A stretch of DNA of 47,066 nt, from positions 1 through 47,066 of the forward strand of contig JAFMEV010000003.1 of NCBI GenBank assembly GCA_017856545.1, written 5' to 3'. The notes under the pieces were generated by a model that had not been told where the DNA came from, did not search any database, and saw nothing but the letters and a program-made list of their open reading frames with translations. Positions 28,237 to 32,745 of the stretch are shown here, piece by piece. The position numbers were made by a program, and so were the translations under genes. Source of the DNA: Chitinophagaceae bacterium. Its GTDB lineage: Bacteria; Bacteroidota; Bacteroidia; Chitinophagales; Chitinophagaceae. Position 1 is the first letter of the stretch. Every line of letters begins with the position of its first letter.

Positions 28237-28767
28237 ATGAAACAGTTATTAGTAGTTTTTGGTCTTTTATTGATGAGCGCAAATACTTATGCTCAAAAGA
28301 ATTTTAGTACTTCTACTGCTGTGGTAAGATTTATCGCAGTGGATGATACCGATATTGATGCTACCAATAAGAAAGCAGTAAGTCGTCTACAAACTAATGG
28401 GGATTTGAGTTTCATCATGTTGATGAAAGATTTCACTTTTGATATGGATAAAATGCAAGAGCATTTCAATGAAGAGTATGTAGAGAGTGATAAATTTCCA
28501 AGAGCATTTTTTAATGGCAAAATCACCAATTTTTCTTCCGTAAATTTTAAGAAAGATGGTGTCTACCCTATCACCGTTTCAGGTAATATGCAGGTTCATG
28601 GTGTCAACAAAACCATGCAAACCAATGGAGTGATAGAAATCAAGGGTGGCAAGCCTGTGGCAAACGCTAAATTCACTGTTACTTTGAAGGATTTTGGCAT
28701 TGGAGGTGTTTTGATCAAAATGGTGGCGGATAAGATCAATGTAGAGGTAACGGCTGCTTACCAATAG
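28237..28767 (+). CDS. YceI family exported protein
   Basis: Signal peptide; FSTSTAVVRFIA…VESDKFPRAFFNGKITNF…GNMQVHGVNKTMQTNGVIEIKGG. Confidence 0.85.
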   Translation: MKQLLVVFGLLLMSANTYAQKNFSTSTAVVRFIAVDDTDIDATNKKAVSRLQTNGDLSFIMLMKDFTFDMDKMQEHFNEEYVESDKFPRAFFNGKITNFSSVNFKKDGVYPITVSGNMQVHGVNKTMQTNGVIEIKGGKPVANAKFTVTLKDFGIGGVLIKMVADKINVEVTAAYQ

Positions 28768-28769
28768 TA

Positions 28770-28801
28770 TTTGGCTACAAACTAGTTCTATACTAACTTT
28801 G
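28770..28801 (+). promoter_or_regulatory. Bacteroidota promoter TTTG-N20-TAACTTTG driving metH
   Basis: Matches TTTG N19-21 TAnnTTTG; predicted start site falls at about 28806-28808, the first base of the structured leader. Confidence 0.7.
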
Positions 28802-28805
28802 CTCC

Positions 28806-28920
28806 GCAACTGCAGGTGGGATTTGTTTATTGTTCAACCTGCCATCCGTAAGGAGAAAAGAACTAATAAACGATACACCAATCGACTCCCCTTTATTAAA
28901 ATCTCTCCTTAGGCAGCTGC
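28806..28920 (+). ncRNA. Structured metH leader RNA, candidate SAM-II-like pseudoknot riboswitch
   Basis: P1 GCAGGT(28812-28817)/ACCTGC(28837-28842); loop 28823-28832 TTGTTTATTG pairs with 28864-28873 TAATAAACGA; AUUUG in the loop as in SAM-II; alternative nested hairpin 28849-28856/28904-28911. Confidence 0.55.
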
Positions 28921-28935
28921 ATAAAATATATAGGT

Positions 28936-29949
28936 ATGTCAATAAGAGAGGAACTTAAAAAAAGAATTTTAGTCATTGATGGCGCCATGGGTACCATGGT
29001 ACAGCGTCATAAATTAACTGAAGAAGATTATCGCGGAACACGTTTTGCCAAATGGCATACGGATGTAAAAGGAAATAATGATTTATTGTGTATTACACAA
29101 CCTGATATTATCACAGGTATCCATTTACAATATTTAGAAGCAGGTGCAGATATTATTGAAACCAATACTTTTAGTAGTACTTCCATTGCGATGGCAGATT
29201 ACGATATGCAAGAATTAGCTTATGAGTTAAATGTTGCTGCAGTAAAATGTGTAAGAGAAGCCATTAATCAATACAAAGCAAAACATCCCAATACTACTGA
29301 GAAATATATTGCAGGATCTATTGGACCATTGAATAAAACATTGAGTTTGTCTCCAGATGTAAACAATCCTGGATACAGAGCAGTAACATTTGATGAAGTG
29401 GTTGTTGCTTATACAGAACAGATCAAAGGATTAGATGAAGCAGGCGTAGATGTTTTACTCGTAGAAACTATTTTTGATACACTCAATGCGAAAGCAGCGA
29501 TTTTTGCGATCAAAGAATATTACAGAAAAATAGGTAAGGCAGAATTACCCATCATGATTAGCGGAACGATCACAGATGCTTCAGGAAGAACATTAAGTGG
29601 ACAAACATTAGAAGCATTCTATACCTCGGTAGAACATGCAAAGCCGCTGAGTGTTGGATTAAACTGCGCTTTAGGTGCACAAGAAATGAGATCTCATATT
29701 GAAGAGCTTTCTCAAATTGCTTCATGTTATACATCCGCTTATCCTAATGCTGGATTGCCGAATGCAATGGGACAATACGACGAAGCACCTCACCAAACAG
29801 GACATTTTATTGAAGAATGGGCAAAGAATAAATTTGTAAACATAGTGGGCGGATGTTGTGGTACAACACCTGATCATATCAAACAAATGGCAGACAATGT
29901 TAGAAATCTAACACCAAGAAGCCTTCCTATTCTTGATACAACAATATAA
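28936..29949 (+). CDS. metH: Methionine synthase N-terminal homocysteine-binding module, separate polypeptide
   Basis: RILVIDGAMGTMVQRHKLTEEDYRG; AGADIIETNTFSSTSIAMADY; VGLNCALGA; IVGGCCGTTPDHIKQMA. Confidence 0.93.
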   Translation: MSIREELKKRILVIDGAMGTMVQRHKLTEEDYRGTRFAKWHTDVKGNNDLLCITQPDIITGIHLQYLEAGADIIETNTFSSTSIAMADYDMQELAYELNVAAVKCVREAINQYKAKHPNTTEKYIAGSIGPLNKTLSLSPDVNNPGYRAVTFDEVVVAYTEQIKGLDEAGVDVLLVETIFDTLNAKAAIFAIKEYYRKIGKAELPIMISGTITDASGRTLSGQTLEAFYTSVEHAKPLSVGLNCALGAQEMRSHIEELSQIASCYTSAYPNAGLPNAMGQYDEAPHQTGHFIEEWAKNKFVNIVGGCCGTTPDHIKQMADNVRNLTPRSLPILDTTI

Positions 29950-30021: not shown

Positions 30022-32745
30022 ATGATTCATATTAAACCTTATTTAAGACTTGCTGGATTAGAACCTTTGGTGATTCGTCCAGAAACCAATTTTGTGAATG
30101 TGGGAGAAAGAACCAATGTAACTGGTTCAAAAAAATTCGCAAGATTGATTAAAGAAAATAAATACGAAGAAGCTTTATCTGTTGCTCGTCAACAAGTAGA
30201 AAGTGGTGCGCAGATTATTGATGTAAATATGGATGATGCCTTATTAGAAGGCGTGAAAGCCATGACTACTTATTTGAATTTATTACAAAGTGAACCAGAT
30301 ATTGCGCGTATTCCAGTAATGATTGATAGCTCTAAATTTGAGATCATTGAAGCAGGTTTAAAATGTGTACAAGGAAAGTGTATTGTGAATTCTATCTCCA
30401 TGAAAGAAGGAGAAGAAAAGTTTATAGAACAAGCACATATTTGCAAAGCCTATGGAGCAGCAGTGATTGTAATGGCTTTTGATGAAGTAGGACAAGCTGA
30501 TACGAAGGATCGTAAGGTGGAAATTTGTGAAAGAGCTTATAAGATATTGGTTGAAAAAGTAGGATTTGATCCTCAAGATATTATTTTTGATCCCAACATT
30601 TTTGCAGTAGCTACAGGTATAGAAGAGCACAATAACTATGCAGTAGATTTTATTGAAGCTACTAAAATCATCAAGCAAAAAATGCCTTTGGCAAAAGTAA
30701 GTGGTGGTGTATCGAATGTCTCTTTCTCTTTTAGAGGGAATGAAGCAGTAAGAGAAGCTATCCATGCAGTATTCTTATACCATGCGGTGAATGCTGGTAT
30801 GGATATGGGAATTGTGAATGCAGGTCAGTTAGCAGTATATGATGAAATTGATCCAGTATTAAGAAATCTTTGTGAAGATGTTATCTTAAATAAAAACAAC
30901 GATAATAACCAAGCAACAGAAGCCTTAATTCAATATGCAGATAATTTAAAAGCAAGTGGTGAAAATGGAGGACAATCTTCTGAAGAAGCTAATAAAATTA
31001 AATTAGCCTGGAGAAACGATACGGTAGAAAAGCGATTAGCGCATTCATTGATTAATGGTATTACAGACTTTATTGATGAAGATACAGAAGAAGCAAGATT
31101 ACAATATAGTGCTCCATTAGAAGTGATAGAAGGCCCATTGATGGCAGGAATGAACCAAGTAGGTGATTTATTTGGTGCTGGTAAAATGTTTTTACCACAA
31201 GTTGTGAAGAGTGCTCGTGTGATGAAAAAGAGTGTAGCTGTATTAACTCCCTATATCGAAGCAGAAAAAGAAAGAATCAAATTAGCCTCTGCATCACCAA
31301 ATGGTGCAACCAAAGGACCTGCTAAAATTTTATTGGCAACCGTAAAAGGAGATGTACATGATATTGGTAAAAATATTGTGGGTGTAGTATTAGGATGTAA
31401 TGGTTATGAAATTATAGATATTGGTGTAATGGTGCCTGCTGATAAAATTTTAGCAGAAGCAGAAAAGCATCAGGTAGATATTATTGGATTAAGTGGCTTG
31501 ATCACTCCATCATTAGACGAGATGGTACATATCGCCAAAGAGATGAAGAGAAGAGGGATGAATATTCCTTTAATGATTGGAGGGGCGACTACTTCAAGAA
31601 TGCATACTGCTGTAAAGATTGCTCCGGAATATGATAATGGTGTTATACATGTATTGGATGCCTCAAGAAGTGTAACGGTTGCAGGATCTTTATTAAATAA
31701 GGATCAAAAGAAAACATTCCTAGCAGAATTAGATACTACTTATAATCAACTGAAATCAGACTTTGACAATAAGAAAACAGTAAAACAAAGTCTTCCTTAC
31801 AAAGAGGCTTTACAAAATAAAGTAAGTATTGATTGGAGTAATTTCAAAGTAACTGCTCCTAGTTTTACAGGAAATAAAGCGATTGCGATTGAAGATTTAT
31901 CCGTATTAGTACCTTATATAGATTGGAAACCTTTCTTTATTGCTTGGGAACTACACGGAAACTTCCCAGCTATTTTAACAGATGAAAAAGTAGGTGAAGT
32001 TGCTAGTAAATTATACCAAGATGCTACTGCCCTTTTAAATACTATTATTCAAGAAAAGTGGTTGACTGCAAAAGGTGCTATTGGATTTTGGCCAGCAGCT
32101 GCAAAAGAAGATGATGTGATCTTAAATGATAATGGTAAAGAAGTCTCTTTACATTTCTTAAGACAACAATCTAAAAAAGCAGCAGGTCAACCTAATTTCT
32201 CTTTAGCTGACTTTATTTGTCCAGCATCAGAAAACAAAGAAGATTATTTGGGTGCATTTGCAGTAACCATTCATGGTATTGAAAAACATATCAAAGCTTT
32301 TGAAGCCAATCACGATGATTACAATAAAATTATCTTACAAGCATTAGCTGATAGATTAGCAGAAGCATTTGCAGAATACTTACATGCGCAAACCAGAACA
32401 GAATACTGGGGCTATGCAAAAGAAGAGCAATTGGACAATGATGCATTAATTAAAGAAGAGTATGTAGGTATTAGACCTGCTCCAGGTTATCCAGCTTGTC
32501 CAGATCATACAGAAAAGTATACCTTATTTGATTTATTGAATGGTCAAGAACATACTGGCATTAGCTTGACAGAAAGTTTAGCGATGTACCCAGCATCAAG
32601 TGTTTGTGGTTGGTACTTTGCACATCCTCAAAGTCAGTATTTTGGATTAGGTAAAATTCAACAAGACCAAGTAGAAGATTATTCAAAAAGAAAAGATAAA
32701 TCTTTAGAATATATCACTAGATGGTTGCAACCTGTGATTGAATAA
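30022..32745 (+). CDS. metH: Methionine synthase C-terminal modules (pterin-binding, cobalamin-binding, AdoMet activation)
   Basis: [52 protein letters not shown] (B12-binding DxHxxG); [39 protein letters not shown]. Confidence 0.97.

Follow-up and report, generated by a model that had tools for sequence, protein, structure and literature searches.

The SAM-II and SAM-V riboswitches are off switches. Both have a relative in SAM-II long loops (RF01726), which were described from Bacteroidetes and marine sequences (Weinberg et al., 2010; PMC2864571). In the SAM-V structure (PMC6061858), the SAM adenine pairs with U47, itself contacted by U8; a U20:A48.U9 triple faces the sulfonium, with a U19:A49.U10 triple next to it. 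The aminoacyl group of SAM is held by A50, whose partner is A18. Inosine at position 50 severely reduces SAM binding (PMC6061858).

The window analyzed here is a 47,066-nucleotide stretch of DNA from Chitinophagaceae bacterium (assembly GCA_017856545.1, contig JAFMEV010000003.1, positions 1 to 47,066). Its metH leader, i.e., the interval between a YceI-like gene ending at 28767 and metH starting at 28936, carries a pseudoknot with most of the SAM-V pocket residues. We consider it rather likely, with a probability of roughly 0.7, that this region forms the SAM-sensing aptamer of a switch acting in cis on metH, a Chitinophagaceae-specific variant of the SAM-II/SAM-V superfamily. The metH of the window consists of two adjacent genes, which are included in the following features.

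28770..28801, + strand: Bacteroidota-type promoter, TTTG at 28770-28773, 20 nt, then TAACTTTG at 28794-28801
28812..28817, + strand: 5' strand of stem P1, GCAGGU, pairing with 28837-28842
28818..28824, + strand: loop 1, candidate third strand of a triplex, GGGAUUU
28825..28835, + strand: 5' strand of stem P2 (strand A), GUUUAUUGUUC
28837..28842, + strand: 3' strand of P1, ACCUGC
28845..28854, + strand: optional hairpin P3 in loop 3, UCC-GUAA-GGA
28849..28911, + strand: alternative hairpin of the minimum-free-energy fold, UAAGGAGA at 28849-28856 with UCUCCUUA at 28904-28911
28860..28871, + strand: 3' strand of P2 (strand B), GAACUAAUAAAC
28892..28898, + strand: strand C, UUUAUUA, alternative partner of the UAAUAAA of strand B (a weak match if the window is taken by itself, p 0.31)
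28936..29949, + strand: metH part 1, homocysteine S-methyltransferase (Pfam PF02574, 335.5 bits)
30022..32745, + strand: metH part 2, with pterin-binding, B12-binding and activation domains (Pfam PF00809, PF02607, PF02310 and PF02965)

Structure and distribution of the metH-leader element

The preliminary description of this leader had proposed a stem of GCAGGT (28812-28817) and ACCTGC (28837-28842) enclosing a 19-nt loop (28818-28836), and every base of it was confirmed. The pairing that it had drawn between TTGTTTATTG in the loop (28823-28832) and TAATAAACGA (28864-28873) uses bases that are present, but its register of 10 pairs with two G-U can be improved to 11 Watson-Crick pairs by joining 28825-28835 (GUUUAUUGUUC) with 28860-28871 (GAACUAAUAAAC) and leaving U28864 bulged. 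P2 is then an 11-bp stem, GUUUAUUGUUC/GAAC(U)AAUAAAC, in which one U is bulged and for which AUUU is the candidate third strand. The AUUUG that begins in loop 1 is nearly invariant among the leaders, and GAACTAATAAAC of strand B is found in nearly all of them. Because loop 1 is ~3 nt shorter than that of SAM-V and P2 is longer, the predicted triplex is not certain. The P3 stem is kept within the genus of the window while its tetraloop varies among GUAA, GAAA and GAUA; P3 is frequent in loop 3 but missing from leaders in which this loop is short, and the loop 3 spacing between A and B ranges from ~10 to 70 nt.

The folding energy of the window's leader alone is unexceptional (z -0.87), so the case for the element rests on comparison. 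We aligned 100 distinct leaders with R1, a covariance model built from 41 metH leaders; the alignment was fitted to P1 and not to P2. Compensatory changes in both stems among relatives, a check set beforehand, were found: all 6 pairs of P1 changed on both sides, and the nearly invariant P2 (99.6% standard pairs) had two-sided changes in 2 of its 11 pairs (L141 and L138), together with several U-G changes. None of 500 shuffles, which ignore phylogeny, reached the pairing values of the whole structure, and sliding the partner destroyed these values. It should be noted that the invariance of P2 partly reflects how the sequences were collected; yet the leaders without an R1 match show no degraded core, as a scan of them for fuzzy or SAM-II-like cores found none with both strands and no continuum of decay.

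The preliminary description had also placed a promoter, TTTG plus TAACTTTG, such that transcription would start at the first bases of the structure. The bases of this promoter are present. Of 120 leaders, 102 have TANNTTTG 5' of the core, in almost every case 12-19 nt away from it, compared to 2.0 expected from shuffles; the motif fits the Bacteroidota -7 element. TTTG is found 17-23 nt further upstream in 21 of the 36 leaders with enough sequence, in 15 of the 21 at exactly 20 nt. Given this conserved position of TANNTTTG, transcripts are expected to begin at or just before P1, which would place this stem right at the start of the RNA. Comparison of the leaders shows an H-type pseudoknot of P1 and P2, carried by a transcript predicted to start at about P1.

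The common core of the metH leaders of relatives reads GAUUUGUUUAUUGUUC ... GAACUAAUAAAC. R1 matched 110 of 149 sampled Chitinophagaceae genomes, which represent 77 of 103 genera; a matched genome nearly always has one copy, and 109 of the 111 copies were directly upstream of metH on the same strand, at a median of 139 nt before the protein match. In one of the two exceptions (G124), reading of the contig revealed that the copy also precedes a metH start. In the other (G049), the copy is at a contig end, and contigs C62 and C97 (L136 and L137) end in the same sequence; these contig-end copies are probably one locus split by assembly. At the class level, 6 of 242 genomes matched R1, 4 of them from Chitinophagaceae. 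The other two, weak matches outside the family (L103 and L104), lack the conserved core and look spurious. A scan of GTDB genomes for the exact core, made with no knowledge of metH, yielded at least 119 matches. Among the matches listed, metH was downstream in all 114 that could be checked, and the remaining 5 of the at least 119 were near the end of the available sequence. The records of the matches listed are titled Chitinophagaceae, other Bacteroidota or uncultured bacteria, and their genera include Segetibacter, Flavihumibacter, Ferruginibacter, Terrimonas, Niabella, Puia and Hydrotalea. Thus, the core marks the metH leaders of Chitinophagaceae.

The element is a real, strongly conserved and apparently uncatalogued structured RNA, well beyond what chance would give. 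Of 4227 Rfam families, none passed its cut-off, whether in the window or in 20 relatives, and searches with lenient E-values returned no significant SAM family. A covariance hit for SAM-II, SAM-II long loops or SAM-V, for which the preliminary description had suggested looking, stayed below the cut-offs in the window and the relatives. The best Rfam SAM match in the window was SAM_V (RF01826), at 13.3 bits against a gathering threshold of 41 (E 7.7); SAM-II/SAM_alpha (RF00521) had no match in the window or relatives, and RF01726 (gathering threshold of 44 bits) had none in the window or the 20 relatives and none over the cut-off in the 149 family genomes. RF01726 matched 34 of the 242 class genomes and precedes metK at the loci that could be checked; R1 found none of the RF01726 loci, and the models do not cross-detect. 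No description of the element was found in the open-licence literature, leaving aside Weinberg and colleagues' extensive motif survey of 2017.

Candidate ligand pocket

The pocket was mapped by sequence alignment to the SAM-V numbering (PMC6061858); the correspondence is one of alignment and not of a solved structure of the element. In loop 1, A28821 and U28822-U28824 correspond to SAM-V A7, U8, U9 and U10; in strand A, A28829, U28830, U28831 and G28832 correspond to A18, U19, U20 and G21; and in strand B, the bulged U28864 corresponds to U47 and A28865-A28866 to A48-A49, with U28867 at the position of A50. The equivalents of U8, U9, U10, U19, U20, G21, U47, A48 and A49 are all present and near-invariant in the 100 leaders. 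The equivalent of A50 is absent, as nearly all leaders have a U that gives a plain A18:U50 pair. Among the RF01726 loci, 28 of 30 have A50; the two exceptions, with A18/U50, precede metK (L087 and L088), which argues that the exchange is compatible with SAM sensing. The SAM-II-like class of the preliminary description thus holds for the pseudoknot at the transcription start before metH, the covariation and nearly all pocket residues, but not for membership in the SAM-II, RF01726 or SAM-V families of Rfam.

A SAM-I riboswitch (RF00162, 57-81 bits) is found in the metH leader of the element-free family members G032, G114 and G127. This replacement before metH by another SAM sensor is the strongest indirect evidence for SAM as the signal. 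SAM-I stands directly before metH at loci L131, L132 and L221, in family members without the new element.

Expression platform and proposed mechanism

Shine-Dalgarno control is uncommon in Bacteroidota. We propose that SAM binding would stabilize strand A with strand B. In leaders with B abutting the AUG, the A:B pairing would block translation directly; in most leaders, including that of the window, the downstream strand C could pair with B instead, and the choice between A:B and B:C would decide metH expression. High SAM would be predicted to lower it.

Strand C typically has the sequence CGUUUAU..(A)GUUC and lies 24-40 nt downstream of B. Its complementarity to B is significant at p<=0.05 in 72 of 114 leaders (mean z -2.7 relative to dinucleotide shuffles). 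The pairing energy is -8.7 kcal/mol for A:B and has a median of -9.25 kcal/mol for B:C, so the two states differ little in energy. The window's alternative hairpin holds UAAUAAA/UUUAUUA and CGAU/AUCG inside and excludes P2. A match to mir-3192 was rejected as a chance fit to the antisense of this hairpin. An inner stem of the GAAAC/GUUUC type between B and C is found in 21 of 84 leaders at p<=0.05.

In seven leaders (L191, L193, L206, L209, L214, L139 and the re-registered L138 of G055) the AUG follows strand B by 0-12 nt, so that P2 itself would cover the start. A general strand D, i.e., a start-codon strand pairing with C, was rejected as a family-wide mechanism, as it reached p<=0.05 in 5 of 81 leaders (L045, L047, L049, L169 and L181), with L048 borderline. 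In L045, L047, L049 and L181, a B-like strand (e.g., TGAACTAATActtATG in L049) lies beside the metH AUG and could pair with C. These four leaders could use a four-strand switch between A:B/C:D and B:C, in which the pseudoknot would turn translation off. Together, the AUG-adjacent B strands and the B-like strands at start sites point to control in which the bound ligand would switch expression off.

Two further kinds of sequence were noticed in the leaders. The words GTTGCGTCGCAC and GTTGTGTCACTC follow strand C in many long leaders, including L004, L010, L020, L021, L203 and L204, and are absent from the window; 21 copies occur in 0.88 Mb of loci that are enriched for metH leaders, compared to ~0.1 expected per word. 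A genus-conserved block, GGATNNTGCATAAAA, lies just 5' of the metH start codon (L032-L042; GGCAGCTGCATAAAA at 28912-28926 in the window) and seems able to pair in part with P1 on its 5' side (CAGCA/TGCTG in L035 and L037, for example). This block is a possible extra switch strand.

Judged from the leader sequences, the most likely role of the element is repression of metH as a riboswitch of the SAM-II/SAM-V type. Counted for this explanation are the position before metH, the covariation, the pocket residues, the SAM-I replacement, the RF01726 bulge architecture before metK, the AUG-adjacent B strands, the significant B:C complementarity and the close energies of the two states. Counted against it are the U at the position of SAM-V A50, the lack of any Rfam SAM model over its cut-off, the shortened loop 1 and longer P2, and the finding of a start-site partner for C in only about five leaders. 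Within this explanation, Rho-dependent attenuation is a tentative sub-mechanism: SAM-held B would expose a C-rich, G-poor stretch that loads Rho. In 85 leaders, C makes up 30% and G 10% of the B-C interval, and that of the window contains ACTCCCC and TCTCC; however, the interval is only ~30 nt long. A ligand that turns metH on, with the B:C hairpin as the off state (a terminator or translation block), is quite improbable. An A-rich sequence does precede B, and TTTTT follows C in 15 of 77 leaders with C, compared to 4.8 expected, but most C strands have no T run directly after them, pseudoknot formation would mask the start codon in leaders whose AUG directly follows B, which implies an off switch, and SAM-II and SAM-V switch off.

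In a rival reading the fold is the same and the ligand differs: the A50-to-U exchange would retune the pocket to SAH, to a different sulfonium or adenosyl compound, or to a cobalamin- or homocysteine-related metabolite. Nearly every leader has another base at the aminoacyl-contacting position, the loop 1 turn is shortened and the sulfonium- and adenine-facing residues are retained; a precedent has been described for spermidine, in which a close SAM-aptamer variant changed its ligand (PMC10853860). This reading is nevertheless unlikely, given that A18/U50 is also found in two RF01726 metK leaders, where SAM is expected, and that SAM-I occupies the same position in relatives. It is likewise doubtful that the A50-to-U exchange and the extended P2 alter recognition so far that the element is a separate class on the SAM-II/SAM-V scaffold, with a non-SAM metH signal or a new mode of SAM binding and a three-strand platform. 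The almost invariant P2 strands could also be those of a protein site, i.e., a conserved DNA operator or protein-binding RNA in place of an RNA switch, but P1 covaries, the changes in P2 are compensatory, the A-B spacing varies from ~10 to 70 nt and the element is downstream of the promoter, which makes such a site very improbable.

The element is probably a switch for methionine feedback that serves a whole bacterial family and appears to be uncatalogued. If the SAM-switch reading is true, it would fill in the missing methionine-feedback regulator of vitamin-B12-dependent metH for a large, environmentally common family and would add a SAM-II/SAM-V superfamily member overlooked by curated models. 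With one contact residue exchanged and the rest of the pocket kept, it would be a natural experiment on recognition of the amino-acid end of SAM, and its leaders, ranging from an AUG right after the pseudoknot to a three-strand switch, would form a natural series for Bacteroidota expression platforms.

Comparison with known systems

The metH element resembles RF01726 in its H-type pseudoknot, its GAUUUG third strand, its UUG followed by a P2 with bulged U, its P2 3' strand with a potential partner further downstream, its Bacteroidota hosts and its methionine/SAM gene. The two differ in that RF01726 precedes metK and the metH element precedes metH, in the sequence and length of P2 (UUGCA/UGC-U-AA in RF01726 and UUGUUC/GAAC-U-AA in the metH element), in position 50, which is nearly always A in RF01726, and in the families of their hosts. 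With SAM-V (RF01826) the element shares the equivalently placed AUUUG, UAUUG and bulged U47 A48 A49 and the optional P3 in loop 3. In contrast to SAM-V, the AAC turn of loop 1 is missing, P2 is extended by GUUUA/UAAAC, A50 is changed to U, no Shine-Dalgarno sequence follows, and the host belongs to Chitinophagaceae and not to the marine Pelagibacter lineage from which SAM-V was described. SAM-II/SAM_alpha (RF00521) has the same pseudoknot topology and the pocket residues as for SAM-V, and SAM-I (RF00162), which precedes metH in element-free members of the family, has an unrelated fold.

Since the models fail and one contact residue differs, the metH element should not be assigned to SAM-II, SAM-II long loops or SAM-V. 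Models set it apart as a group of its own, and its architecture places it in the same superfamily; SAM-V was split from SAM-II on such grounds, though their pockets match (PMC2704228, PMC6061858).
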